DNA from: Polynucleobacter aenigmaticus
GTDB taxonomy: Bacteria > Pseudomonadota > Gammaproteobacteria > Burkholderiales > Burkholderiaceae
Reading direction: 5' to 3'
DNA: 64,000 nucleotides
NCBI RefSeq assembly: GCF_002206635.1
Contig: NZ_NGUO01000010.1
Location: 1 to 64,000 of the forward strand
Shown here one piece after another: positions 46,713 through 60,794 of the stretch. The position numbers and the translations under genes were made by a program. A model generated the notes under the pieces. The model made no database searches. It saw nothing but the letters and a program-made list of their open reading frames with translations, and had not been told where the DNA came from. Numbering within the stretch: position 1 is the stretch's first letter; every line of letters begins with the position of its first letter.

Positions 46713-46730
46713 TGGCGGAGCGGACGGGAC
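46713..46730. repeat. attL: displaced copy of the tRNA-Asp 3' end
   Basis: TGGCGGAGCGGACGGGAC, identical to 60718-60735 inside the tRNA-Asp gene, including the CCA complement. The rest of the tRNA is missing here. Confidence 0.92.
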
Positions 46731-46738
46731 ACTATGAT

Positions 46739-46834
46739 GGGGGAAAATAAATAACCTTCTAAGCCATATACCCAATAGGAACATACCTCTCAGGGTGGTT
46801 GGTGGGAATATCTAGGGGGAAATTTAGGGGGAAA
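46739..46834 (+). repeat. Left-end GGGGGAAA repeats (candidate integrase arm sites)
   Basis: Three copies of GGGGGAAA in the same orientation at 46739, 46815 and 46827, the last two 12 bases apart within TAGGGGGAAATTTAGGGGGAAA-like sequence. Matching copies occur at the right end. They lie between attL and the integrase gene. Confidence 0.6.
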
Positions 46835-46868: not shown

Positions 46869-48287
46869 GTGTCACTTACAACTAAGGTCAATATGACTCC
46901 TACTACTCCTAAGAAACCTACTAGCTACATTGAATACAAGGATGGGTTTCCCTATGCAGCACTCACTATCCCAGTAGAGCTAAGAGAGAAGATTGGGAAG
47001 CGAAAGTATCGAAAGAAGCTGGAAGCTATAAGCTCAAGAAAAGCTCAGTTAGAGGCTGCCTCACTGGTTGCTGGATGGAAAAAGGAGTTAGCCCTACAAA
47101 AGGCATTGCTTAATGATGAGACTAGGAATCCCCTCCTAAAGATCATCATGGAAGCACTTGATCTAAGGAAAGCTTTTGAGCAAGCAGATGGTCATTCCGA
47201 AGAGGGAGAAGAAGACTCTGAGAAAGAGCTTCTCCGTGAGCAGATTGAAATACTGGCAAGAGGAAGAGTTCAGAGTAAGCACGGAGAGCAAGTAGCCTTA
47301 GAATTTTATGGAATTGCTACAGGTGCTCATACTCCCCTACTCCCCCTCTACAAGGAGTGGTCTAAGTCCAAGCTAAAGAACTACTCCCTCAAGACTGTGG
47401 ACTCATACAAAAGGGATGCTAAGAGCTTTGTAGATAAGTTCACCTACTTAGAGGCAGTTAATAAGCGAGCTATGAAAGTATGGATTACTGAGCTTATGGA
47501 GGTGGGTACTGATCCTACCAATCCTAAGCCTATGAGCCACACTACTTTGACGGATCGCTTCATGTGTGGAGTAAGACATTTCTGGAACTACTTAGATTCA
47601 AGGGGTCTCATTGATGAGGAGATGATTAACCCTATGGAGGGAATAATCCCCAAGAAGGAGAAGACCAAGATCACTAACGCTAGTGTAGGTTGGACTCCAT
47701 TCGATCCTAAGGAAGTAGTCCAGCTCTATCAGAGTATCCCTGAGGATGACCCCCAGCTATCTTCAGTGACGGCTATAGCCATGTTCACAGGCATGAGGAT
47801 TGAGGAAGTCTGCTCTCTTACTGCCTCTCAGATCATTGATGTAGATGGGATCAGGTGCTTTGACATTAGAGACTCTAAGACTAAGGCTGGTATTCGAGTT
47901 GTCCCCATACATATCCAGTTAATACCACTGGTAGATAAGTTACTTCTAGCAGCTAAGGGTGATGCAGAGAAAGCTCCTCCTGATACTTTCCTGATAGCTG
48001 GACTAGGAGTTAACAAGTATGACGATAGGTCTAATGCAGTTGGTAAGAGATTTGGCAGACTTAAGAAGCAGCTTGGATTTGATGAGAAGAAGGTATTTCA
48101 CTCAATTAGAAAATGTGTAGTTACTCAGTTAGATAGAGCTGGATTTAGAGAGACGGCTATTGCAGACCTAGTAGGACACGAGAACCCCAGCATGACAATG
48201 GGTCGCTACTCTGCTGGTATTGATGCTCCGATTCGTAAGCCCATGATTGAAAGCATTAAGTACCCTTCCCTAAAGGAATCACAATGA
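46869..48287 (+). CDS. int: Tyrosine recombinase (integrase)
   Basis: 472 residues. The N-terminal ~150 residues contain a basic arm-binding-like region and acidic spacer; then a SAM-like core-binding domain (SLKTVDSYKRDAKSFVDKF) and the catalytic domain with R310 (TGMRIEEV), H411-x-x-R414 (HSIRKC), H437 (GHENPSMTMG) and nucleophile Y447. It integrates the element into the tRNA-Asp 3' end. Start is GTG 46869 or ATG 46899. The stop overlaps the next gene (ATGA). Confidence 0.95.
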   Translation: MSLTTKVNMTPTTPKKPTSYIEYKDGFPYAALTIPVELREKIGKRKYRKKLEAISSRKAQLEAASLVAGWKKELALQKALLNDETRNPLLKIIMEALDLRKAFEQADGHSEEGEEDSEKELLREQIEILARGRVQSKHGEQVALEFYGIATGAHTPLLPLYKEWSKSKLKNYSLKTVDSYKRDAKSFVDKFTYLEAVNKRAMKVWITELMEVGTDPTNPKPMSHTTLTDRFMCGVRHFWNYLDSRGLIDEEMINPMEGIIPKKEKTKITNASVGWTPFDPKEVVQLYQSIPEDDPQLSSVTAIAMFTGMRIEEVCSLTASQIIDVDGIRCFDIRDSKTKAGIRVVPIHIQLIPLVDKLLLAAKGDAEKAPPDTFLIAGLGVNKYDDRSNAVGKRFGRLKKQLGFDEKKVFHSIRKCVVTQLDRAGFRETAIADLVGHENPSMTMGRYSAGIDAPIRKPMIESIKYPSLKESQ

Positions 48288-48646
48288 CACCTATAGAGAT
48301 AGAGCAATCCAAAGCAATAGACTCCCTCAAGGATTTAGTAGGTGGAGCTGAGGCTTACTCTGAGCTAATTACTTGGGCTAAAGATGGACTAAAAGAAGTC
48401 GAGATCAATAGCTTTAATAATTCAGTAGGCTCTAGCAATCCCAAGGTGTCTCAGTTAGCTATAGCAGGACTACTAGCTAGATTTGTATTGGCTAATGGAA
48501 GACCCCCATACTTAACTACTGGTAATGCTCCTCCAGTTGATGTCTATGTAACTAAAGAAGAGATTACTAGGGCAATGAGAGACCCACGCTATGCCAAGGA
48601 TTCAGTCTATCGAAATGCAGTTATCGAAAAGGTACAGAGATCATGA
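48284..48646 (+). CDS. Protein resembling the C-terminus of T7-like phage capsid assembly (scaffolding) proteins
   Basis: 120 residues. The first third (LVGGAEAYSELITWAKDGLKEVEINSFN) and the C-terminal end (TKEEITRAMRDPRYAKDSVYRNAVIEKVQRS) look like the last ~110 residues of podovirus gp9-type scaffolding proteins, where MRDPRYxxDxxYRxxVxxKLxxS is characteristic. The long N-terminal part of a normal scaffold (~200 residues) is missing. The similarity is from memory. In a satellite such a fragment could bind a helper phage's capsid protein. Coupled to int by an ATGA overlap. Confidence 0.55.
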   Translation: MTPIEIEQSKAIDSLKDLVGGAEAYSELITWAKDGLKEVEINSFNNSVGSSNPKVSQLAIAGLLARFVLANGRPPYLTTGNAPPVDVYVTKEEITRAMRDPRYAKDSVYRNAVIEKVQRS

Positions 48647-48915
48647 CCTACAAGCCCTACATAAACCCAGCTAGAGAGGATGCTAGAGCCATTAGGAATG
48701 AAGCAAGAGTTGCAGCCAATTATGAGGCTGGGATCATTAGCGAATCCACCCAAGATATGCAAGGCTTAACTGATGCTGAGTACTGCTACTTCCTGAGGAT
48801 GGGCAACTTCATGCCACAGGTGAATCCCCCTGCAATCAACATAATGAATGGTGACCCTTCAGTTCATGACATCAATGAAATGCTAAACAACCACAAGAAA
48901 GACCAAGATGAATAA
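48643..48915 (+). CDS. Hypothetical protein
   Basis: 90 residues; N-terminal basic helix (NPAREDARAIRNEARVAANYEAG), C-terminal acidic tail (KKDQDE). No signal or membrane segment. Starts within the stop of the scaffold-like gene (ATGA), so it is translationally coupled to it and may work with it. Confidence 0.6.
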   Translation: MTYKPYINPAREDARAIRNEARVAANYEAGIISESTQDMQGLTDAEYCYFLRMGNFMPQVNPPAINIMNGDPSVHDINEMLNNHKKDQDE

Positions 48916-49231
48916 GAAGCTCCTAGCAGCAGTAGCTTTAGTAACACTCACGCTCTCCCCTTTGGGTTACTCACAATCAACTACAACTAACTACAGGGAT
49001 GCCAATGGTTCTGTAGTGGGATCTTCAATTAACTATGGCAACGGCACAGTTCAATATAGAGATGTCAATGGATCAATAGTGGGCAGTGCTTACAACGGCA
49101 ATGGGGCAAGTAATACGACTAACTACATGGACAGTTCGGGTCATGTCATTGGAAGTAGCTCCAGTTCTAGCCCAAACAATAACCCTCAGCCAATCAGACC
49201 CTTTAATCAGGATGCTTGGCAAGCTAAGTAG
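48908..49231 (+). CDS. Exported protein with tandem beta-hairpin repeats
   Basis: 107 residues: signal peptide (KLLAAVALVTLTLSPLGYSQS), then three ~20-residue repeats of the form NYRDANGSVVGSSINYGNG / QYRDVNGSIVGSAYNGNG / NYMDSSGHVIGSSSS, and a short tail. Repeats with N/DxxGxxxGS turns are seen in secreted bacterial proteins. Likely surface or periplasmic lysogenic-conversion-type cargo; function unknown. Overlaps the preceding gene by 8 bases. Confidence 0.65.
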   Translation: MNKKLLAAVALVTLTLSPLGYSQSTTTNYRDANGSVVGSSINYGNGTVQYRDVNGSIVGSAYNGNGASNTTNYMDSSGHVIGSSSSSSPNNNPQPIRPFNQDAWQAK

Positions 49232-49288: not shown

Positions 49289-49657
49289 ATGGACTTAATA
49301 GAGTCAACCAAGATCTGTTACTCAAAGTTTTTAGATGCTGATGGTAGAGCTAGTCAAAGTGAATACTGGTGGTTCTATCTAGTTGGTGTGATCAATGGGC
49401 TGCTGATACTCCTTCTGTCCTCCGTAAGTGAATCATTAGCAGCATTAGCCTTGATAGCTGCCGTGGTCTCAATCCCTCCTCACCTCACGGCTATGATTAG
49501 AAGATTGCATGACACAAATCACAGTGGCTTATGGGTCTTACTGCTGCTAGTTCCCTTTGGCATATTCGTAGTTACCTACTGGTTGATCTGTAGTGGTGAT
49601 GAGGGTGCTAATAGATATGGTGGTGTACCAGTGGAATTGATTGGTGTGCAGGTTTAA
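49289..49657 (+). CDS. DUF805 membrane protein
   Basis: 122 residues, four membrane segments with DGRASQSEYWWFYLVG near the start and MIRRLHDTNHSGLWVLLLLVPFGIF in the middle, the DUF805 (YhaH-type) signature. Inner membrane; function not established. Same orientation as its neighbours. Confidence 0.88.
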   Translation: MDLIESTKICYSKFLDADGRASQSEYWWFYLVGVINGLLILLLSSVSESLAALALIAAVVSIPPHLTAMIRRLHDTNHSGLWVLLLLVPFGIFVVTYWLICSGDEGANRYGGVPVELIGVQV

Positions 49658-49669
49658 AGAGGAAGATAT

Positions 49670-50161
49670 ATGAAGTTAGTTCTTAGCAAGTTAAATGGCT
49701 GGCAACGCATATTCGTAGCCTTTATCATTTTTATCTATTTGCCGATTTCGGCTATCTTTATGTCTGACAAGCCATACATAACGGGGCTAACAGAAAAGCA
49801 ATTTCTCGAACTTATGCCTACAGATATTTTGTTGGAAATGAAGGCTGGAAAAGCCTTTTATATGGATAAGGATAATAAAAAACCATGGGACGAGTACGTA
49901 GAGCCCAATAAATTTGTAATGATTGATTACGACTTTGCTTATTCATGGCGGTATACCTTAGCTATTGATAAGAAGGTAGACCCGACCAAAGCAGTAGCTA
50001 TGGGCGAACAATTAGGCAAGGCTCTGTATGACGACTACAGTAAAAAACTACTCATGGCTAGACTTAAGAATGTTGCTATGTTGATTGGGTTTGCAGTAGC
50101 TATTTACGCTTTTGGCTGGACGCTGGGGTGGATATACAAAGGATTTAAGAAGCCAATATGA
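49670..50161 (+). CDS. Membrane protein, unknown
   Basis: 163 residues; hydrophobic segments near both ends (RIFVAFIIFIYLPISAIFM and NVAMLIGFAVAIYAFGWTLGWIY) enclose a ~90-residue periplasmic domain (LTEKQFLELMPTDILLEMKAGKAFYMDKDNKKPWDEYV). No family recognised. Coupled to the following gene (ATGA overlap). Confidence 0.6.
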   Translation: MKLVLSKLNGWQRIFVAFIIFIYLPISAIFMSDKPYITGLTEKQFLELMPTDILLEMKAGKAFYMDKDNKKPWDEYVEPNKFVMIDYDFAYSWRYTLAIDKKVDPTKAVAMGEQLGKALYDDYSKKLLMARLKNVAMLIGFAVAIYAFGWTLGWIYKGFKKPI

Positions 50162-50430
50162 GTGACCTCGAATACTCAGGCAAGGTCAAGGGAATGATGA
50201 CCTTTAAGGAGCATGAACAAGCTCGCCTTCTCAAAGCTATGGTGATCCCAGCTAGTGAATTAGCCAAGAGGAAACAGGAGGAGCTAGAAAGAGCTAATGC
50301 TTTTACTAGAAGTGTTGAAGATGAGTCCTTTTATGCTCGCACTGAGTCTTCAGTGAGTCCTAGGGATTCGAGTCCTATTGGAGTGAGGGTGGGGATTGTG
50401 AGTCGAGAACCATTCGATGAATTACCTTAA
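50158..50430 (+). CDS. Hypothetical protein
   Basis: 90 residues, highly charged (FKEHEQARLLKAMVIPASELAKRKQEELERANA), no signal or membrane segment. Overlaps genes on both sides, so it is part of a compact unit. Confidence 0.55.
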   Translation: MSDLEYSGKVKGMMTFKEHEQARLLKAMVIPASELAKRKQEELERANAFTRSVEDESFYARTESSVSPRDSSPIGVRVGIVSREPFDELP

Positions 50431-50573
50431 TGAAACTAACTAAGACCTCCCTGTTTATCCTTGGGTGGCTTGTGGTTCTCATAGTTGCACCACTGGTAGC
50501 CTTGAAGTATCTGCTGGTGACTCATGGGGCATGGGGTTTTACTAGTGGGGACTACTGGCTAGAAATATTCTGA
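50430..50573 (+). CDS. 47-residue single-pass membrane peptide
   Basis: Starts at the last base of the previous stop (TAATG). One strong hydrophobic segment (LFILGWLVVLIVAPLVALKYLLV) and a short C-terminal tail (THGAWGFTSGDYWLEIF). Overlap and hydrophobicity make it a credible small gene. Confidence 0.5.
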   Translation: MKLTKTSLFILGWLVVLIVAPLVALKYLLVTHGAWGFTSGDYWLEIF

Positions 50574-50630: not shown

Positions 50631-50931
50631 CTCGAAAAAATCCTTGAAAATCACCCTCAGATCATTCATTCCAAGAGACTCCTCCAGCTATCACTAGGAC
50701 ACCTCAGGAGACCACGCTATAACCTTCTAATGCTGAGGTAGCCACTCTCCATATCGTGCCTCCTAGAGCTTCCTAGTGGCTTGTATTCATTGGCTATTCT
50801 AGTTGTGCATGGCTCAAAAGGTACAAGTAATGAGCCTACCAATAATATGGCTATAAACATAGCTTTACAGGGCTTATGAGCTAGGTACATAATGGACACT
50901 ATCTTATGAGCCAACTAAAGGGGTGTTCACC

Positions 50932-51609
50932 ATGAACCATGTAGCCTACTTCCGTGTATCAACCATTGACCAGAGTATTGAGAGCCAAAGAGCTGCCCTT
51001 CTAGCTGCTAGTGGTGTCACCCAGTTTGATAAGGAGTTCTCAGACCTTGGTATCTCAGGGTCTACCTTGGCTGCTAGTCGTAAGGGGTTCAGTGAGCTGA
51101 AGGCTTACCTACGCAAGGGTGACACTCTGTATGTCTACTCCATTGATCGCCTAGGTCGTGATGCTATTGATATCCAAATGGTGGTGAGAGACTTCCTAGA
51201 GGCTGGTATCAAGGTCTATATCGTGGGGCTGGGTGTGCTTGATGCTATGGCTGGACAGATAGTGATTGCAGTGCTCGCTCAGGTAGCCTCATTGGAGAGA
51301 ACCAAGATCAATGAGCGTACTGCTGCTGGTAGGAAGATTGCTAAGGAGACCTTTCAACGCACTGGTAAGACCCACAAGGGCAAGCTATCGCTAGGTAGAC
51401 CTAAGTCATTCGACCCTAAGTCAGTTATCCAGTGGAGAGCTGCTAATAGTGCCTCTATCTCTGCTACTGCTAGTCACTTTGGGATCAGCACTGCTAGTGT
51501 CAAAAGAGCTGCTAGTCCTACAGCAGTAAAACCAGTGAGATCAAGGTTAGTACAAGTGGTTATGAAGGATAGAACCCCAGTATCTAAGGGGCAACTAGGC
51601 TTATTCTGA
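50932..51609 (+). CDS. Serine recombinase (resolvase/invertase family)
   Basis: 225 residues. Catalytic domain with YFRVSTIDQSIESQ (active Ser in RVST), YVYSIDRLGRD (Arg motif) and the long E-helix (GQIVIAVLAQVASLERTKINERTAAGRKIAK); a C-terminal helix-turn-helix (SISATASHFGISTASVKRA) binds DNA. It could resolve dimers or invert a segment of the element. ATG 50932 is preceded by aaagggg; GTG 50923 is too close to that site. Confidence 0.93.
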   Translation: MNHVAYFRVSTIDQSIESQRAALLAASGVTQFDKEFSDLGISGSTLAASRKGFSELKAYLRKGDTLYVYSIDRLGRDAIDIQMVVRDFLEAGIKVYIVGLGVLDAMAGQIVIAVLAQVASLERTKINERTAAGRKIAKETFQRTGKTHKGKLSLGRPKSFDPKSVIQWRAANSASISATASHFGISTASVKRAASPTAVKPVRSRLVQVVMKDRTPVSKGQLGLF

Positions 51610-52052: not shown

Positions 52053-52337
52053 ATGGTTCTCTTGACTATCCCTATGGGGGAGATTCGTCTGAAGACTCAT
52101 TCCATAGATGAACTCAAGGTATTTATAGGCAGCTACGCTCCATTGACTAAACAGAGATACAACCTAGTTGATATATTTATTGTTGTTTGTGGTGGTCGTA
52201 CCAATCAGCAAACCACCAGTTACCTTAGCCCCACCTTTAGTCTCTCTTTGGTTGGGTATTCGTTTCACTCATTCCAAAGGTTATCTAAAGCATTACCTAA
52301 GATTGCTGAAGATATTGCTATGGGGGGATACCTTTAA
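52053..52337 (+). CDS. Doubtful small protein
   Basis: 94 codons with some protein-like composition (EIRLKTHSIDELKVFIGSYAPLTKQRYNLVDIFIVV). There is no clear ribosome binding site, and it sits in an otherwise gene-poor stretch, so it may be chance. Confidence 0.3.
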   Translation: MVLLTIPMGEIRLKTHSIDELKVFIGSYAPLTKQRYNLVDIFIVVCGGRTNQQTTSYLSPTFSLSLVGYSFHSFQRLSKALPKIAEDIAMGGYL

Positions 52338-53473: not shown

Positions 53474-53788
53474 ATGACAGTACAGAAAGAACTTGTACAA
53501 GTAACGGGCAATCGCCCCAAGTGTGCCGAGAAGTTAGTCATTAAGACTACCCTTCTCCACGCTAATGAACAGGCAGCCTTCAAGCAGCTCCTTAAGCACC
53601 CTTCCCTACGCTTGAATGAACTCAGTGAGGCATCAATGGCTCTAGTTTTACGCAGAGCGTTAACCCTTCTCACAGTCCACCATGCAGCCATTGGTAACAA
53701 CCAAGAGAAGATTGAAATAGAACGAGATTGTCTGTTCCGCTTATCTCGTAGTGGCTCTGCCTATCGCTCCAGTGGTTACAGGAAGTGA
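53474..53788 (+). CDS. Hypothetical basic protein
   Basis: 104 residues; a helical middle (LHANEQAAFKQLLKHPSLRLNELSEASMALVLRRALTLLTVHH) and a basic C-terminus (RLSRSGSAYRSSGYRK). Possibly DNA-binding. Ribosome binding site aagga. First gene of the large second operon of the element (to 57058). Confidence 0.6.
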   Translation: MTVQKELVQVTGNRPKCAEKLVIKTTLLHANEQAAFKQLLKHPSLRLNELSEASMALVLRRALTLLTVHHAAIGNNQEKIEIERDCLFRLSRSGSAYRSSGYRK

Positions 53789-53794
53789 GCCTCC

Positions 53795-54517
53795 ATGACC
53801 AAAGCCTCAATAGGAAGAGTTCGTAAAGCTCAACTGACCTATGGGAATGTTTGCACCTTAAATGGATGCAACCAACCTAGGAAGTCTGGTCACAAGTGGT
53901 GTGCTCTTCATAAGCGAAGGTCTATCTACAGGGGATCACCTGAGCAAAATATGATCCGCCAAAGAGATATTAGCTTTGCTAGGAAGACTGTCTTATTCCT
54001 AATTCAAGATAACCAAAATAATCCAGCATGGCATGACCTTATGGCTGCAATTCAAAGTAACTGGGATGCTGGAGTAAGAGCCGTCAATCAGGAGTTACTA
54101 CTGTCTGCTACTGGCTATGCTATGAACCGCCTTAGAAGGAATGGACTTAGGATCTGCTCAGCAATCTTTGCAGGAGTAGGTCTACAGAAGACTTTCATTA
54201 CCTACTGTGCCTACCAATATCTGCAAGAGTTCAATTTAAATCAATTCGCTACTGATACCTCCTTCAGACACCTACTAGTAAGAGCACTCCGTAATGAAGC
54301 TAAAGACTTCAACCCCAACTTAATCAATAAGACCACTGGTAAACCACTGGCTTATAGCTCCCCTCTTTATATGAATGAGAGGGATTGTGTGTGGGAAGTG
54401 ATGTCAGGAATCTTTGGGGCTACAGGAATGAAGCTCTACACCCAGCTAGAGAAGAGAGCCGAACGATTAAGACAGAACAATCTCAATATCAATAAAGCAA
54501 TTAAGAATATTCAATAA
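53795..54517 (+). CDS. Hypothetical protein with N-terminal zinc-finger-like motif
   Basis: 240 residues. The start has a possible C3H metal site, CTLNGCNQPRKSGHKWCALH; the rest is helical and basic (GYAMNRLRRNGLRICSAIFAGVG). Placement before an RHH protein and a helicase suggests a role in replication of the element (primase-like or initiator), which I cannot confirm. Confidence 0.6.
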   Translation: MTKASIGRVRKAQLTYGNVCTLNGCNQPRKSGHKWCALHKRRSIYRGSPEQNMIRQRDISFARKTVLFLIQDNQNNPAWHDLMAAIQSNWDAGVRAVNQELLLSATGYAMNRLRRNGLRICSAIFAGVGLQKTFITYCAYQYLQEFNLNQFATDTSFRHLLVRALRNEAKDFNPNLINKTTGKPLAYSSPLYMNERDCVWEVMSGIFGATGMKLYTQLEKRAERLRQNNLNINKAIKNIQ

Positions 54518-54532
54518 CCCAGTAAGGAAACA

Positions 54533-54700
54533 ATGATCCATAACACTAAGGCTATTCGTATCAGCCTCCTCCATAAGCAAATAGATGCACTAGCAGAACT
54601 AAGTAGAAAGAGTAATCAATCCCTTTCAGAAACACTTATCAAATTTCTCCAAACAACTAACTTGAATGTCCACAATGACACAACTACAAGCAGTAAGTAA
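54533..54700 (+). CDS. Small ribbon-helix-helix protein
   Basis: 55 residues: beta strand TKAIRISLL, helix HKQIDALAELSRKSN, turn and helix QSLSETLIKFLQ, the RHH (CopG/Arc) pattern. ATG follows aaggaaac. Its end overlaps the start of the helicase-like gene by 35 bases. Probably a regulator of the operon or of copy number. Confidence 0.6.
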   Translation: MIHNTKAIRISLLHKQIDALAELSRKSNQSLSETLIKFLQTTNLNVHNDTTTSSK

Positions 54701-56735
54701 TGAAGCACAACAAGCCTTTAGATTCAGCCCTAACCGCCAAGAACGCAGACAAGCAGAGGGCAATCTCAAGAAGCTAATCCAAAAGGGTAGCCCTGTAGAT
54801 AAGCTCCCAGCAGTAGCCCTCCAATTACTCCAAGGAATGATGCAGGGTTATGGCAACAAGCTATCTGAAGAGCACAAACAATCCCTCTTTGAAGTCTGTA
54901 TCCAATACTCACAAATTCTCTTTGGTAAAGCCACTGGTCGAATAGTTATTAGTCTTGATGCAGGATTAGGTAAAACTTTGTCCATAGTGGCACTAGCAGC
55001 AGCCATCACTAAGCTAGGCTACAAGTCTAAATCTATCATGGTGGCTCAGTCTCGTATCGCTGAGCTATGTCTCATGAATGATTCCCTTATCAAGGCTGGA
55101 GTAGCCCCTGAGAGCATTGGCTTAGTCCACTCATACCAGTATGACCCTAAGCTCCCAGTAGTTGATGGTGAGCCTCTCAATGAGTATGGTGAGATCAAGA
55201 AAGGTTATGCAGCTAGAGTCAGTAATGCCAAAGAAGACTCCTCTCAGTTTCAATTCCTACTGGTTTCTCATAGCAAGGTAAAAGGTAAGCGAGAGATCGT
55301 TAAGCATACCCAGTACAAAGGACAACCAAGATCACTCACTATCTGGGATGAATCATTCATCTCTACTGAGGCTACTTGTGTTGGCTTAAGGGATCTGAAG
55401 ACTGCCATTGTGGAATTTGAAGGTTCTATGCAATATGAACTACAGGAAGTAGCTCCCTTCATTACATGGCTTAAGCAATCCCATGACCTACTAGCAAATG
55501 AAGAGAAGTCTCAGAAGGCTAGAAGTAAAGCTAAAGAGATATACCTTCCTCCCCTATCTGAAATACAAGCTACTACCTATGGTGGCTATGCTCAGTATTC
55601 AAGGAAAGATAAGAGATCAGAATGGAGGCAGATGTTAAGAGAAATGGTAGCTATGGCTGCTGATCCAGTAAGAGTCAATATAACTGGTAGTGAAGCTGTA
55701 CTTCAGTTCTCAGATGCCGTGTCTAAACAACTCACTAATCTAGTTGTCCTTGATGCTAGTTACAAGATTAGGGAGCTAGTGAGAATAGACCCAACACTTC
55801 AAGAACCAGACTTTTTTGTCCATAAGCAAAACCTTAAATCCTATGAAGATTGCACCCTACACCGCCTAGATTACTTTGGCTCAAGAGTTGCAGCAGAGAC
55901 TCCAGTTCGTGCAGCCAAGGTAGCTAAGGAAGTGGCTATAGTCATCAAGGGGTTACCGCTGGATGAAGCTATCTGCCTATTCACTTTCAAGTGGCAAGAC
56001 AATCCCAAGAAGAAGGCTCATGCTTCTATCGTTATCACTGCTCTACTGGAACAAGGGATTGATATTGATACCACTGTCACCCTCAAGGATGGGACTATCA
56101 AGCCACGCTTTATGTGGAAAACTTGGGGGCAAGAAACTGGCAGTAATAATGCTAGTCATTGTCACCATATCTTCCTTGTGGGAGTTCTAAGACAACCAGC
56201 AAATCAATTCCTAGCTCAGTTAGTGGGGCAGTCCTACGATCTTCTTAAGGATATGCCTAAGGCAGCCGTCAGTGAGGCAGAGGTTACAGAGCTTAGTCAC
56301 TTAATCTATCAAGCCTCCCTCAGATCAAGAGCTAGGGTTGTATCGAATGGGAAAGCACTAGCAGCCAACTTTTACCTAGTTCTAGATGAGCCAAGGGTTG
56401 AGAGTTACCTCTTAGAAATTATGAGGGGGCTATCAATCAAGGAGTGGATACCTAGTGATCCAACCCTAGTTAAACCTAAGGTAATGAATCAGGCAGCACA
56501 GAGAGTTATCAAGGCTTTCCAAGAATTAACCAGTGGTGATCTTAATGAAATCTCTGTAAGGGACTTTAAGGTTCGCTATGAGTTAACTGGAGTTCCTGAT
56601 CAGACCTTCAAGGCAGCTAGAGATCAAGCCTTAAGCATGAATCAAGGATGGTATCAGCCACAGGGTTCTAAAAGTTTCAAGAGAGTATTTCCATCGGTAA
56701 CCCAGCAGCACCAAATCAAGATCACCCAACATTAA
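54666..56735 (+). CDS. Helicase-like P-loop ATPase
   Basis: 689 residues. Walker A SLDAGLGKTLS, Walker B LTIWDES (DExx-like), a motif-III-like segment LVVLDASYKIREL, and near residue 495 NNASHCHHIFLVGVLRQP, which resembles the late motifs of SF2 helicases. The N-terminal ~90 residues and C-terminal ~100 residues are unlike known domains. It probably unwinds DNA during element replication. Longest gene in the element. Confidence 0.75.
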   Translation: MSTMTQLQAVSNEAQQAFRFSPNRQERRQAEGNLKKLIQKGSPVDKLPAVALQLLQGMMQGYGNKLSEEHKQSLFEVCIQYSQILFGKATGRIVISLDAGLGKTLSIVALAAAITKLGYKSKSIMVAQSRIAELCLMNDSLIKAGVAPESIGLVHSYQYDPKLPVVDGEPLNEYGEIKKGYAARVSNAKEDSSQFQFLLVSHSKVKGKREIVKHTQYKGQPRSLTIWDESFISTEATCVGLRDLKTAIVEFEGSMQYELQEVAPFITWLKQSHDLLANEEKSQKARSKAKEIYLPPLSEIQATTYGGYAQYSRKDKRSEWRQMLREMVAMAADPVRVNITGSEAVLQFSDAVSKQLTNLVVLDASYKIRELVRIDPTLQEPDFFVHKQNLKSYEDCTLHRLDYFGSRVAAETPVRAAKVAKEVAIVIKGLPLDEAICLFTFKWQDNPKKKAHASIVITALLEQGIDIDTTVTLKDGTIKPRFMWKTWGQETGSNNASHCHHIFLVGVLRQPANQFLAQLVGQSYDLLKDMPKAAVSEAEVTELSHLIYQASLRSRARVVSNGKALAANFYLVLDEPRVESYLLEIMRGLSIKEWIPSDPTLVKPKVMNQAAQRVIKAFQELTSGDLNEISVRDFKVRYELTGVPDQTFKAARDQALSMNQGWYQPQGSKSFKRVFPSVTQQHQIKITQH

Positions 56736-57151: not shown

Positions 57152-57499
57152 ATGTCATTACTAATATCAACACAGACCAGTAGACCAAGCCGTATGAGCT
57201 ATGGACTCTACATACCCTTCCCCTTACCTAGAGGTGAATTTAAGAACTTCCCAGCAGTAGCAACCAAGGTATGCCCACGCTGCCTAACCCCTCTTACCAT
57301 TGGTCAGAACATTACTTCTTACCGATTCAAAAAGCAGTATTACTTGTGCTCCCAGTGTTACTCATTAGCACTCAAGGGTTATAACAAACAGAGAGCCAAC
57401 AGTAAGAAGTCTGCTATCAAAGCTAGGAAGTCCTACTTACAAGAGCAGATCCCCAAGCTAATGGATGAATTGAAGTACATAGTTCGCATGGGCTACTGA
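57152..57499 (+). CDS. Small zinc-ribbon protein (first of three)
   Basis: 115 residues with CPRCLTPLTIGQN ... YYLCSQCYSLAL, a C-x2-C-x21-C-x2-C zinc ribbon, and a basic helical tail. The next gene has the same spacing. The tail suggests nucleic-acid binding (transcription factor or late-gene regulator). Confidence 0.65.
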   Translation: MSLLISTQTSRPSRMSYGLYIPFPLPRGEFKNFPAVATKVCPRCLTPLTIGQNITSYRFKKQYYLCSQCYSLALKGYNKQRANSKKSAIKARKSYLQEQIPKLMDELKYIVRMGY

Positions 57500-57500
57500 T

Positions 57501-57821
57501 GTGCTTAACCATCTAAGAAGTATCAAGATATGCCTAGGCTGCCATGATCCACTATTCATAGGTAAGAACATTAGTAACAATAAATTCTTACGATCAGACT
57601 ACAGATGCAAGCACTGCTCCACTCTACAAGCTGGGGGACTCTGTCACTCATTACCAATCAACAAGCAGTTTGCCCTTGGTATGAAGCAGCACAGGGTTGA
57701 CCTACTTAAGAAAATAGATAGCTACAAGGGCAAGGTCGGGAGACCACCCAAGATAGTTGCAGAACTAAAGCTATTTATTAAAAAACTAAACAAAGCAATC
57801 AAAGAGCATGAAAAGAAATAA
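57501..57821 (+). CDS. Small zinc-ribbon protein (second of three)
   Basis: 106 residues with CLGCHDPLFIGKN ... YRCKHCSTLQAGGL, again C-x2-C-x21-C-x2-C, and a basic C-terminus (KGKVGRPPKIVAELK, which contains an AT-hook-like GRPP). Starts with GTG one base after the previous stop. Paralogue of its neighbour. Confidence 0.65.
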   Translation: MLNHLRSIKICLGCHDPLFIGKNISNNKFLRSDYRCKHCSTLQAGGLCHSLPINKQFALGMKQHRVDLLKKIDSYKGKVGRPPKIVAELKLFIKKLNKAIKEHEKK

Positions 57822-57999
57822 TTACATTACTAAGCCCCACGCTAAGAGAGTATGTCGCAACTGCCTCACTAGCTTTACAAGAGAGCAGCAGTCAACACAG
57901 GCTCGCTTTCAATGCAAGTCCTGTGACACCCCTACCAAGAGAACCACTTGGATCTCTAAAGCAATCCTATGCCTCACCAATACACCACACAGAAAGTAA
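57808..57999 (+). CDS. Small zinc-ribbon protein (third of three)
   Basis: 63 residues with CRNCLTSFTREQQ ... FQCKSCDTPT, C-x2-C-x16-C-x2-C, basic throughout. Overlaps the previous gene by 14 bases. A shortened relative of the two upstream genes. Confidence 0.6.
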   Translation: MKRNNYITKPHAKRVCRNCLTSFTREQQSTQARFQCKSCDTPTKRTTWISKAILCLTNTPHRK

Positions 58000-58006
58000 A
58001 CACACC

Positions 58007-58939
58007 ATGTCTTATAGTTCATACACAGTAGGTAGCGAATCTAATCAGTCCCTAGAGTCTGGTTTAGCCCAACCAATCAATACAGTTAGCAGTTCGGAGA
58101 TAACCTCCATTACCACCCAAGCAAGTAGCAATAGAACCCACCAATACAATGGAAACACAGGCGAGGAATCCAGTACAGGGCAAGGTTCATTCCAAGCTGC
58201 CGAAGGTGCAGAAGTCTTTTCAGCCAAGGGGACTCCAAAGTCATTTATTGATTCACCTAGCGACCTTGTAAATTACCAAGGAATGGCCGTACAAGCAGCA
58301 ACCTTAGAGAATATGGGCATCCTTAAACAAAACTCTATGGGTCGCTATGACTTTGTAGAACAAGTAGCCACCCCTCAGCAGCAAGCACAAGAACAAGCCA
58401 ATACAGATATACATGATGGGTTTGCTATGAGCGAACAAGAGAATGAATCAATCAATGCTTTAGTACCTCAGGGTGTAGAGCACGGGGCTATTGAAGCTAT
58501 CACACACCGAGGAGTAGAGGCTGCCGTAAGTGGTGATCTAACTCATACGATTGCAGCCCTCTCACAGTCAAGTGGACAGTCCCCAGCAGAGGCTACCGCT
58601 ACAGTGAACAAGGTAGTAGAGACCTTCACTAAGGCTTCTAATCGTTACCTAGAGCAAACAGTAGGTATGACTAAGGGTGATATTCCTGAGTTCTATGAGT
58701 GGGCAAAAGTTCATGCTCCAAGTGATCTGAAGGCTGCTATCAATAAGATGGTTAGTAATAACAACTTTAAGTCTATGGGTCAACTAGTTGGCTCTTGGGC
58801 TATGTCTAATCCACCAAGCGAGAATTCTCTTAATGCTGCTGGTTATAAGACCGGAAAGGCTACAGACGGCTCTACAACTGTCTTCATCAAAGGTAAAGAG
58901 ATGAATGTCAGGGCAGCTGCAAAAGCTCGATTGATCTAA
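58007..58939 (+). CDS. Hypothetical protein, low-complexity N-terminus and helical C-terminus
   Basis: 310 residues. Residues 1-90 are Ser/Thr/Gln-rich and probably disordered; the rest is helical (EAITHRGVEAAVSGDLTHTIAALSQ, DIPEFYEWAKVHAPSDLKAAINKMVS) and ends with GKEMNVRAAAKARLI. The layout (disordered front, helical back) is reminiscent of scaffolding or minor capsid proteins, but I cannot assign it. Start 58007 follows the end of the zinc-ribbon gene. Confidence 0.6.
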   Translation: MSYSSYTVGSESNQSLESGLAQPINTVSSSEITSITTQASSNRTHQYNGNTGEESSTGQGSFQAAEGAEVFSAKGTPKSFIDSPSDLVNYQGMAVQAATLENMGILKQNSMGRYDFVEQVATPQQQAQEQANTDIHDGFAMSEQENESINALVPQGVEHGAIEAITHRGVEAAVSGDLTHTIAALSQSSGQSPAEATATVNKVVETFTKASNRYLEQTVGMTKGDIPEFYEWAKVHAPSDLKAAINKMVSNNNFKSMGQLVGSWAMSNPPSENSLNAAGYKTGKATDGSTTVFIKGKEMNVRAAAKARLI

Positions 58940-58941
58940 GC

Positions 58942-59193
58942 ATGGCTAAGGTCATCTCCACTTATAGTTTTAGCAAGAGAGAGTTAGATGAGAGGAAGCT
59001 ACAGGCTAGATGTAATGTCATAGAGCCTCAGGCAGACAGTAAGCAACCAAAGTATCTCAACGGCTACCTCTTACAGAAGGATCAGGCTGGGTACTTTCTA
59101 CTCAAGCCCTCACCCAACTCCCCCACGATGATTCGAGAAGACCTCCCTATCTCAGTGGGGTATGCAGCTGCTCTTCAAAGAGACTCGCTGTAA
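58942..59193 (+). CDS. Hypothetical protein
   Basis: 83 residues, mixed charged (TYSFSKRELDERKLQARCNVIEPQADSKQ); no recognisable domain. Starts 2 bases after the preceding stop, so it is co-transcribed with it. Confidence 0.55.
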   Translation: MAKVISTYSFSKRELDERKLQARCNVIEPQADSKQPKYLNGYLLQKDQAGYFLLKPSPNSPTMIREDLPISVGYAAALQRDSL

Positions 59194-59202
59194 CAACTTT
59201 AA

Positions 59203-59294
59203 GTCCCACAGTAATCACAAAGCAAGAGCCTGACTATAGAAACCTGAGGGTAACTACAGGAGGACAACTCTCGCCCAGTGGTTACTTGTGGGAC
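59203..59294 (+). ncRNA. Candidate structured leader RNA (long imperfect hairpin)
   Basis: GTCCCACAGTAATCAC (59203-59218) pairs with the segment 59278-59294 (GTGGTTAC, a one-base bulge, TGTGGGAC), giving a 16-bp stem with one G-U pair. The inner loop holds a small hairpin CCTG...CAGG. It sits in the 165-base gap before the gene at 59359. Confidence 0.45.
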
Positions 59295-59358
59295 ACCTTA
59301 CCTATACACACACAAGGATTCCACTTTGGATACCACCAACATCACTACAGAATCATTT

Positions 59359-59631
59359 ATGAAGTCTGTATCTGAACCAAGAAAGAAGCCGACCTTAATT
59401 GGTGGCACTCCTCCCCCAAGAGGATTTACATACAAGGTTCATTCCTTTAGTAACCATCATCTCTATGTTCTCTCTGTATTGGCTGATCACTTCAACTATG
59501 CAGATTCCAAGGTCTTACAGAAAATGATCCAGTTCTTTATTGAACAAAATCGAGAGCTGGTAGATGAAGCCTTCACCACTAGAGGTAATGCCACTAGAGC
59601 TATCAAGGAGAGACAGAATGGACAACCTTAA
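59359..59631 (+). CDS. Hypothetical protein with possible ribbon-helix-helix part
   Basis: 90 residues from ATG 59359. After a flexible start (EPRKKPTLIGGTPPPRG) comes YKVHSFSNHHLYVLSVLADHFNYADSKVLQKMIQFFIEQN, which could be an RHH domain. A longer reading frame back to 59278 would run into the hairpin and is less likely. Confidence 0.5.
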   Translation: MKSVSEPRKKPTLIGGTPPPRGFTYKVHSFSNHHLYVLSVLADHFNYADSKVLQKMIQFFIEQNRELVDEAFTTRGNATRAIKERQNGQP

Positions 59632-59938
59632 GCTCAGTCAGATTATTCCTGTGTCTGTACTACTTCACTCGCCCTACACACTTAGTACCTACAGTGGACA
59701 GAACCTCACACCACAGATGGTGATAGCAGTCCCCTGTTTCAGAGCTTATTACCAAAAGGTAGAGGACTTGGTGGTTAGTGGTGAGATTCACCAAGTGGCA
59801 GATACCTTTTATCTAGTTTTCTCCCAAGAATCTCCAAGGATTCCCAAGCTCCCAAGCCTTTCAGTAGATTTTGACATCACAACTGAGGAATGGAAGGCAC
59901 TCCATTTACCCACACACACAGGAATCTACACACAATGA
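59618..59938 (+). CDS. Hypothetical protein
   Basis: 106 residues starting MDNLKLSQIIPVSVLLHSPYTLS, with aaggagaga as a strong ribosome binding site inside the previous gene. No family recognised. Confidence 0.6.
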   Translation: MDNLKLSQIIPVSVLLHSPYTLSTYSGQNLTPQMVIAVPCFRAYYQKVEDLVVSGEIHQVADTFYLVFSQESPRIPKLPSLSVDFDITTEEWKALHLPTHTGIYTQ

Positions 59939-60030
59939 TCCAGCAACTATTACAAATCAAAGCTCATCTTAATTACCTTATGTATGAACTGGTAGCTATC
60001 TTGGCTCTAGTGCTCTTTAGGACAATCTAG
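59935..60030 (+). CDS. 31-residue hydrophobic peptide
   Basis: Starts within the previous stop (ATGA) and ends one base before the next start. Sequence QLLQIKAHLNYLMYELVAILALVLFRTI has one membrane-length segment. The tight overlap on both sides supports translation. Confidence 0.4.
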   Translation: MIQQLLQIKAHLNYLMYELVAILALVLFRTI

Positions 60031-60696
60031 ATGGATACAACTAATGAAGAGATTGAGCTATACCCATTCAAGCACTACAAGCTATCCCTCTGTCTTAGAG
60101 AAGCCTCTACCATCTTGAGTAACCTTGTGAGATCCGAGGACTACCAAATCAACACGGCTAGTCCCAGTTGGGAGATGAGAAGTGAGGCTCAAGCAGAGGC
60201 TAAAGGGATTACTAAGTGGCAGTGTTATGACAGGGAGATCTACTGTAAGTTACCTAAGCACCATTCTCGATCTGTATTCGTAAAGACTTCCTTGGGTTGG
60301 ATGCAGTTATGTTGTGCCAAGGAGCTGGGGCTAGAGAGGTTGCCTAATACTTATGTCCAGCCAACTGATGAGGAGATCATGGCTATCTATGCCGATAAGA
60401 AATATGAGCTGGGTCTAATCGTGAATTATCAGCAGAGGCTTTCTACTGCCAAGAGTGTTGCAACTAGGAAAGCGAATTCAGAGAGGCTGGCTAAAGCTAA
60501 GGCATTAAAGGTAGCCGAGAAGGTAGCTATTAAGGCTGCTAGGACACCTGAGGAGATTCTTGATAAGAAGGTAGCGAGGGCTGAGAGAAGAGCTGAGAAG
60601 GTCTGCAAACAGGCTCTACTTGTATCAATACAGGGGGAAAATATGGGGGGAAAGTTAGGGGGAAAACTTCTCCCCTCTAAACTCATAAGTCCTTGA
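60031..60696 (+). CDS. Hypothetical protein at the right element end
   Basis: 221 residues. The centre has a cysteine-containing segment (KWQCYDREIYCKLPKHHSRSVFV, LCCAKELGLERLP) and the C-terminal third is a long Lys/Ala/Arg-rich helix. The last residues (GENMGGKLGGKLLPSK) are encoded by the GGGGGAAA repeats that I take as integrase arm sites, so the tail is shaped by DNA function. Confidence 0.6.
   Translation: MDTTNEEIELYPFKHYKLSLCLREASTILSNLVRSEDYQINTASPSWEMRSEAQAEAKGITKWQCYDREIYCKLPKHHSRSVFVKTSLGWMQLCCAKELGLERLPNTYVQPTDEEIMAIYADKKYELGLIVNYQQRLSTAKSVATRKANSERLAKAKALKVAEKVAIKAARTPEEILDKKVARAERRAEKVCKQALLVSIQGENMGGKLGGKLLPSKLISP
60632..60666 (+). repeat. Right-end GGGGGAAA repeats (candidate integrase arm sites)
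   Basis: Three copies (GGGGGAAA at 60633, GGGGGGAAA at 60645, GGGGGAAAA at 60658), spaced 12-13 bases, same orientation as at the left end. They lie 50-85 bases inside attR. Confidence 0.6.
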
Positions 60697-60717: not shown

Positions 60718-60735
60718 TGGCGGAGCGGACGGGAC
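60718..60735. repeat. attR within the tRNA-Asp gene
   Basis: Second copy of TGGCGGAGCGGACGGGAC; it restores the 3' end of the tRNA. Confidence 0.92.
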
Positions 60736-60794
60736 TCGAACCCGCGACCCTCGGCGTGACAGGCCGATATTCTAACCAACTGAACTACCGCTCC
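60718..60794 (-). tRNA. tRNA-Asp (GTC)
   Basis: 77 bases including encoded CCA. Acceptor GGAGCGG / CCGCTCC, D-loop AGTTCAGTTGGTTAG, anticodon loop CTGTCAC with GTC, T-arm GGGTTCGAGTCCC. The 3' 18 bases are the integration target of the element. Confidence 0.97.

Follow-up and report, generated by a model that had tools for sequence, protein, structure and literature searches.

A 14-kb integrative element of Polynucleobacter aenigmaticus carries, as a separate gene, the C-terminal domain of a scaffolding protein of the T7/pelagiphage type. The gene lies in a 64,000-nucleotide stretch of contig NZ_NGUO01000010.1 (hereafter, the window), where an intact ATG-initiated frame of 120 codons spans exactly positions 48284–48646 on the plus strand. 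Its start shares 4 nt with the stop of the integrase gene, its stop shares 4 nt with the start of a gene for a 90-aa protein, and it is preceded by a leader with a ribosome-binding site (AAAGGAATCACAATG). By analogy with capsid-redirecting proteins of other mobile elements, we lean towards the view that the encoded domain would compete with the scaffolds of T7-like phages for their binding site on the capsid protein and interfere with such phages in general.

An earlier note on this DNA had assigned the protein to the family of scaffold C-termini, and homology searches agree. The best profile match is to phrog_1052, annotated as ‘head assembly’ (91 bits, E 2.2e-25), with residues 10–120 covering profile positions 178–291 of 293. 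The second PHROG match is phrog_1018 (E 1e-4), and the Pfam family of T7 capsid assembly proteins, PF05396, is matched with E 2.5e-5, although the 25.2 bits fall below its cut-off of 27.1; an NCBIfam search with the domain returned nothing. In tblastn searches of 50,697 phage records, the 120-aa protein matched 196 (lowest E 3e-21), 25 of them from Klebsiella phages and 14 from Escherichia phages. Among the 40 matches listed of these 196, 38 are named scaffold, capsid-assembly or head-assembly proteins, one is ‘hypothetical’ and one ‘none’; pelagiphages HTVC048P and HTVC021P head the list at 43% identity, and cyanophage and rhizobiophage scaffolds are also present in it. The best relative found (47% identity) is a 265-aa scaffold encoded on a 40,304-bp T7-like phage contig of a congeneric genome (G008). 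Sequence comparison thus confirms that the gene at 48284–48646 encodes the C-terminal domain of a scaffold of the T7/pelagiphage type, with a similarity far beyond chance. The predicted model of the protein is all-helical, with seven helices and residues 91–119 the most confident part, at moderate overall confidence (pLDDT 70, pTM 0.43). When it was compared with the viral models of BFVD using Foldseek, eight matches were obtained at E ≤ 0.001, of which two are unnamed and the other six are named as capsid assembly or scaffolding proteins; no solved structure in the PDB was matched at this threshold.

Compared with the T7 gp9 and pelagiphage scaffolds (PHROG 1052; PF05396), to which it is homologous over residues 10–120 with the invariant residues largely kept, the window's copy differs in being devoid of the N-terminal part and in residing in a chromosomal element. 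By the alignment, the scaffold of the G008 phage has about 145 residues in the absent part, and a full-length scaffold HMM matches the 120-aa frame at HMM positions 138–252 of 256 only, in line with the proposal of the earlier note that the large N-terminal region is missing; no other open stretch of at least 25 aa in the element reaches E 1 with this HMM. By contrast with these 120 aa, proteins of 213–292 aa are encoded at the 90 other loci where the gene is closed (74 loci on viral contigs, one in the G008 phage, five in named phages, nine on further genome contigs and one in G116). The viral-contig scan with the alignment yielded at least 600 candidates, at least 564 of which encode relatives; among the best 80 of these, which were kept, 74 are closed and full length, and the remaining six start at a contig end and cannot be judged. 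Scanning the viral contigs with the single protein likewise yielded no stand-alone copies, and neither did the genome contigs, in which ten out of ten loci are full length. Matching genomes, the window's own included, number 2 of 101 relatives, 2 of 399 in the order and 2 of 186 in the genus, where the other genome has a full-length phage gene; no match was found in the plasmids searched. Among the loci compared, the stand-alone form is represented by the window's copy only, and its gene is not located between portal and major capsid genes, the portal–scaffold–capsid order being that seen in phages.

The element hosting the gene in this freshwater bacterium is 14,005 bp long and is bounded by 18-bp direct repeats. 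The left attachment site copy (46713–46730) has the same sequence as the 3′ end of tRNA-Asp(gtc) (60718–60794, minus strand), of which positions 60718–60735 constitute the right copy; the sister element described below has these 18 bp at its ends, too. Possible arm-type repeats for the integrase (AGGGGGAAA) are present on the plus strand at 46804–46834, with a right copy at 60635–60665; these AGGGG(G/T)AAA repeats, perhaps integrase arm sites, thus occur just inside both ends of the element, and they are also present at the left end of the sister (L134:572 and 596). The element genes, all on the plus strand, start with a 472-aa tyrosine integrase (46869–48287; PF00589, E 1.1e-19). The scaffold domain is followed by the 90-aa protein (48643–48915), which belongs to no family; a 107-aa protein (48908–49231) with, by eye, a hydrophobic N-terminus and YRDANGSVVGS-type repeats; an accessory DUF805 membrane protein (49289–49657; PF05656, E 1.2e-21); a 163-aa protein (49670–50161; 34% identity to L099:18040–18549 of the G031 element, E 9e-31); a serine resolvase/invertase (50923–51609; PF00239, E 7.3e-30); a 240-aa cysteine-cluster protein (53795–54517; weak HNH similarity, E 0.04); a 689-aa helicase-like protein (54666–56735; weak ResIII similarity, E 0.036); a 338-aa protein (57923–58939) common to these elements; and 83-, 117-, 124- and 221-aa proteins of unknown function (58942–60696), each with a homolog in the sister element. 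The helicase-like protein contains a GLGKT motif and has no Pfam match above cut-off; its relatives adjoin integrases in G009, G090 and Eleftheria terrae. A defence-family scan of ten element proteins gave one weak match, to LmuB (E 0.0011), for 57152–57499. No capsid, portal, terminase, tail or conjugation family was recognised with Pfam and PHROGs in the 18 element proteins scanned, a set that is exclusive of frames such as 50158–50430, 50430–50573, 52053–52337, 53474–53788 and 57808–57999; the nearest virion-type scores, for a tail family (E 0.025, 59564–59938) and a small terminase (E 0.2, the resolvase), are at chance level. The earlier description of a tRNA-integrated element of about 14 kb in which none of these structural genes is recognised therefore stands.

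Searches of 186 genus genomes, in which the 338-aa family and the helicase each matched three, led to genome G458, which contains a sister element (L134:471–15116) of 14,628 bp at the same tRNA-Asp and with the same 18-bp repeats. The two elements are collinear in the homologs of the integrase (57% identity), the 90-aa protein (39%; L134:2003–2200), the cysteine-cluster protein (43%), the helicase (59%), the 338-aa protein (46%) and the small right-end genes. In the sister, the integrase gene is followed, after 9 bp, directly by the 90-aa homolog, and a six-frame search with the full-length scaffold HMM detected no scaffold sequence anywhere in the element. By this side-by-side comparison, which covers two closely related elements (window and G458), the scaffold domain is either a gain in the window's lineage or a loss on the sister's side, and it borders a region of variable cargo. 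Since the sister goes without it, the domain is variable cargo rather than the basis of the element's lifestyle; similarly, the 90-aa gene, being present in an element that has no scaffold gene, does not encode a dedicated partner of the domain. The 90-aa gene was also considered as a possible phage gene and rejected, given that it has no match among phages and has a homolog in the sister element. Immediately downstream of the equivalent position, the sister's variable region encodes a 928-aa protein (L134:4012–6798) with Mrr_cat_2, ResIII and Helicase_C domains, likely a restriction factor judging from these domains, which suggests that anti-phage cargo is acquired in this part of the element. 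The gene precedes a resolvase-like frame recognised by eye (L134:7160–7885), which has no match to the window resolvase at E 0.01, so that the resolvase is not strictly common to both elements. A third element, in G031, spans 13,006 bp at tRNA-Pro between 24-bp repeats and has the 338-aa family and the 163-aa gene in common with the window element. Distant kin in Eleftheria terrae comprise integrase, resolvase, helicase and 338-family genes; there, the cysteine-cluster gene (a weak match over 33 residues, E 5e-4) is found after rather than before the helicase, and the resolvase is on the opposite strand.

The scaffold of phage P22 binds coat protein by its C-terminal part, the coat-binding domain. 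We assume that the T7-type scaffold binds coat via its C-terminal part. In the scenario that we favor, the coat-binding domain of an autographivirus (pelagiphage-type) scaffold would have been captured and retained as a stand-alone cargo gene of the integrative element; upon infection by, or induction of, a T7-like phage, the domain would fill the scaffold-binding site on the major capsid protein and, free of the long N-terminal part, compete with the phage's own scaffold, so that head assembly would be hindered or shifted to smaller or aberrant shells. We infer the binding to capsid, the competition and the benefit to element or host; competition would be the best reading whether it serves defence or provides small capsids for the element.

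Several characterized systems bear on this scenario. The 80alpha scaffold, too, is described as binding coat via its C-terminal part (PMC5644958), and two helices assigned to the scaffold in the T7 structure are likened to the V-shaped pair of P22 and touch the portal (PMC7196576). SaPI1, a small integrated element dependent on helper virion proteins (PMC5644958), encodes CpmB, a short protein with a C-terminal capsid-binding motif in common with the helper scaffold, which is reported to use the same capsid site and to compete for it, changing the capsid from T=7 to T=4 (PMC5644958; PMC6893505). The window's domain would be analogous to CpmB in these features, although the phage type is another and the part in common with the scaffold amounts to about 110 homologous residues here versus, in CpmB, a short RIIK-containing stretch at the C-terminus. 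Neither a separate dimer domain nor a CpmA partner was recognised for the scaffold domain, only residues 1–9 preceding the PHROG match. As these sources put it, capsids stay normal and large with CpmB in the absence of CpmA (PMC6893505), and P22 scaffold 141–303, with the N-terminal part missing, still forms particles with no major change in assembly or structure (PMC9962691); hence a C-terminal part on its own does not necessarily prevent head assembly or reduce head size, and a mini-scaffold that supports assembly may be no less plausible than one that blocks it. Sid of P4 and TcaP of PLE are likewise small-element proteins reported to redirect capsid assembly (PMC10945586), but they are external scaffolds, whereas the window's domain corresponds to part of a phage scaffold of the internal kind. 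At the level of the element, variable cargo between conserved genes is reminiscent of the defence hotspots described for P4-like satellites (PMC9122126), and VEIMEs and tycheposons are described as mobile islands of aquatic bacteria (PMC10803314; PMC10872708), the likeness to the tRNA-linked tycheposons consisting of the tRNA site and the tyrosine recombinase only (PMC10872708; PMC10803314). The window element differs from VEIMEs and tycheposons in that pattern scans of viral contigs found no virion-packaged copy of it.

The congeneric phage encoding the best relative is represented by a separate contig of a Polynucleobacter genome (L005/L006, G008:C5). By inspection, the contig encodes T7-type RNA polymerase, DNA polymerase, portal, scaffold, capsid, tail-tube and large-terminase-like genes, with an integrase-like frame at its right end, and probably corresponds to a temperate T7-like phage. 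It contains CCTACGACTAYAGG at L005 2852, L005 12377 and L006 14673, sites whose resemblance to the T7 promoter makes them candidate promoters of the phage RNA polymerase. Two element frames, the scaffold domain and the 107-aa gene, were the only ones to match the 40,000 bases compared of this phage, and short exact DNA matches between element and phage were no better than those of a control stretch of the window. The 107-aa protein, with its Y-D-x-x-G repeats, is 51% identical over 47 aa to the product of L006:18139–18441 (E 1.6e-7); the same small protein is encoded beside integrases at two Polynucleobacter loci (L117:7459–7785, E 1e-5; L135:10046–10345, E 0.001), a pattern for which gene exchange between phage and elements is a possible explanation.

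Under a narrower form of the preferred explanation, the element would be a true phage satellite, whose scaffold domain would make a T7-like helper form small capsids that package the excised 14-kb element. We regard this as conceivable but doubtful. The integrated element does possess an integrase and attachment sites, does not possess a complete virion gene set and, in the 18 proteins scanned, contains no other recognised structural family and no conjugation family. However, a phage-RNA-polymerase promoter of the CCTACGACTAYAGG type is absent from the element, the sole match in the window (61099, three mismatches) being outside it and within chance. The 107-aa gene is common to the element and the congeneric phage, but pattern scans of viral contigs, whose reach is limited to close relatives, revealed no relatives of the integrase, the helicase or the 338-aa protein, and neither did tblastn among phage records (at E 1e-10, 1e-5 and 0.1, respectively). 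The three elements measure 0.35 (14,005 bp), 0.36 (14,628 bp) and 0.32 (13,006 bp) of the 40,304-bp phage contig. A satellite typically has around a third of the size of its helper (PMC10803314), but the match seen here comes from one phage only and could be coincidence. The similar-sized sister has no scaffold gene, so that its mobility cannot depend on the domain; this is not fatal to the proposal, as SaPI1 is reported to transduce even without CpmB (PMC5644958). The literature searched contained no paper joining ‘Polynucleobacter’ with ‘phage satellite’. Taken together, the family, the truncation and the type of element put forward in the earlier note were sustained, whereas the satellite role stays a proposal, in view of the absence of a promoter of the one known type, the fruitless scans for a viral-contig copy and the sister without the gene.

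It is unlikely that the gene is a passive or decaying fragment, that is, functionless phage DNA taken up by illegitimate recombination. The single occurrence in 186 genus genomes would fit such an origin, as would the long branch of the window's copy and the change of 3 of 23 conserved residues, but the domain boundary is clean, the gene overlaps both neighbors and has a ribosome-binding site, and, as judged from the 40,000 phage bases compared, no phage remnants flank it. Of the 23 columns with a conservation of 90% or more across 83 scaffolds, the 120-aa protein retains 20 (87%), and its conserved residues include W31, D100, R102 and Y103; in leave-one-out comparisons of the 83 scaffolds, the median kept was 100% and only three kept less than the window's copy, which may thus have experienced some relaxation of constraint. 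In the tree, this copy groups with the G008 phage and viral contig L019 in a fork that is not firm (UFB 97, SH-aLRT 74), with a branch length of 1.22 versus 0.27 and 0.21. Despite this long branch, identity to the nearest phage is much higher at conserved sites (21 of 27) than at variable ones (30 of 93; Fisher p 4e-5), a pattern that we read as continued selection. Third-position G+C of the gene is 0.31, the lowest among 11 element genes and close to the 0.33 of the G008 phage scaffold, a weak hint at the same origin. From these comparisons, we read a phage of the same host group as the source, followed by rapid change with the constraint kept.

A broader and quite improbable alternative involves the 338-aa protein, about 40 residues of which weakly resemble the scaffold C-terminal domain. 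Members of this family (280–340 aa) are encoded at 57923–58939 of the window, L134:12608–13546, L099:11140–12054, L100:9251–10096 and L138:11820–12683. The 13–15-kb Burkholderiales elements (window, G458 and G031, with distant kin in G088 and Eleftheria terrae) would all be satellites of temperate T7-like phages, the 338-aa protein would be a far-diverged scaffold, and the window element would carry both an ancient and a newly stolen scaffold for remodelling autographivirus heads. In hhalign, the family aligns with the scaffold domain over about 40 residues (‘fYeWA’ with ‘eliTWA’) at a probability of 17% and p 0.0015; the score of 27.7 exceeds the maximum of 18.5 in 100 column shuffles, a lenient control since shuffling also removes helix periodicity, and the 9.7 of a reversed control. 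With full-length scaffolds, the similarity does not grow (27.3 versus at most 18.2 in 60 shuffles, probability 6.9%), the probability across comparisons ranging from 7% to 17%. BLAST of the 338-aa protein against the scaffold domain found nothing, and scaffold HMM scores of its homologs are at chance: a homolog is the best non-scaffold match among the L100 kin frames (E 0.26) and in six-frame L134 (E 1), but not in the window element (by whole score) or Eleftheria, and that of L099 does not appear. A fold predicted without an alignment was unusable (pLDDT 46.5). Given the low hhalign probability, the lack of a BLAST match and the chance-level HMM scores, the 338-aa protein was rejected as a scaffold and is kept as a lead only.

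Finally, exaptation for a job inside the element, for instance as an integrase partner or regulator (the two genes overlap by four bases), is very improbable, because the sister integrase, 57% identical, goes without the domain (if the sister element is active) and it is the residues conserved among scaffolds that the domain has retained.

If competition for the scaffold site is indeed the role of the domain, a mobile element would disarm or hijack T7-like phages, which are common in water, with a piece of the phage's own scaffold. Escape would be hard for the phage, because a capsid change that avoids the decoy would also cost the binding of its own scaffold, as has been argued for CpmB (PMC5644958). 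The domain would then also constitute a ready-made dominant-negative tool for T7-type assembly. More generally, the finding points to a little-known family of elements in Polynucleobacter.
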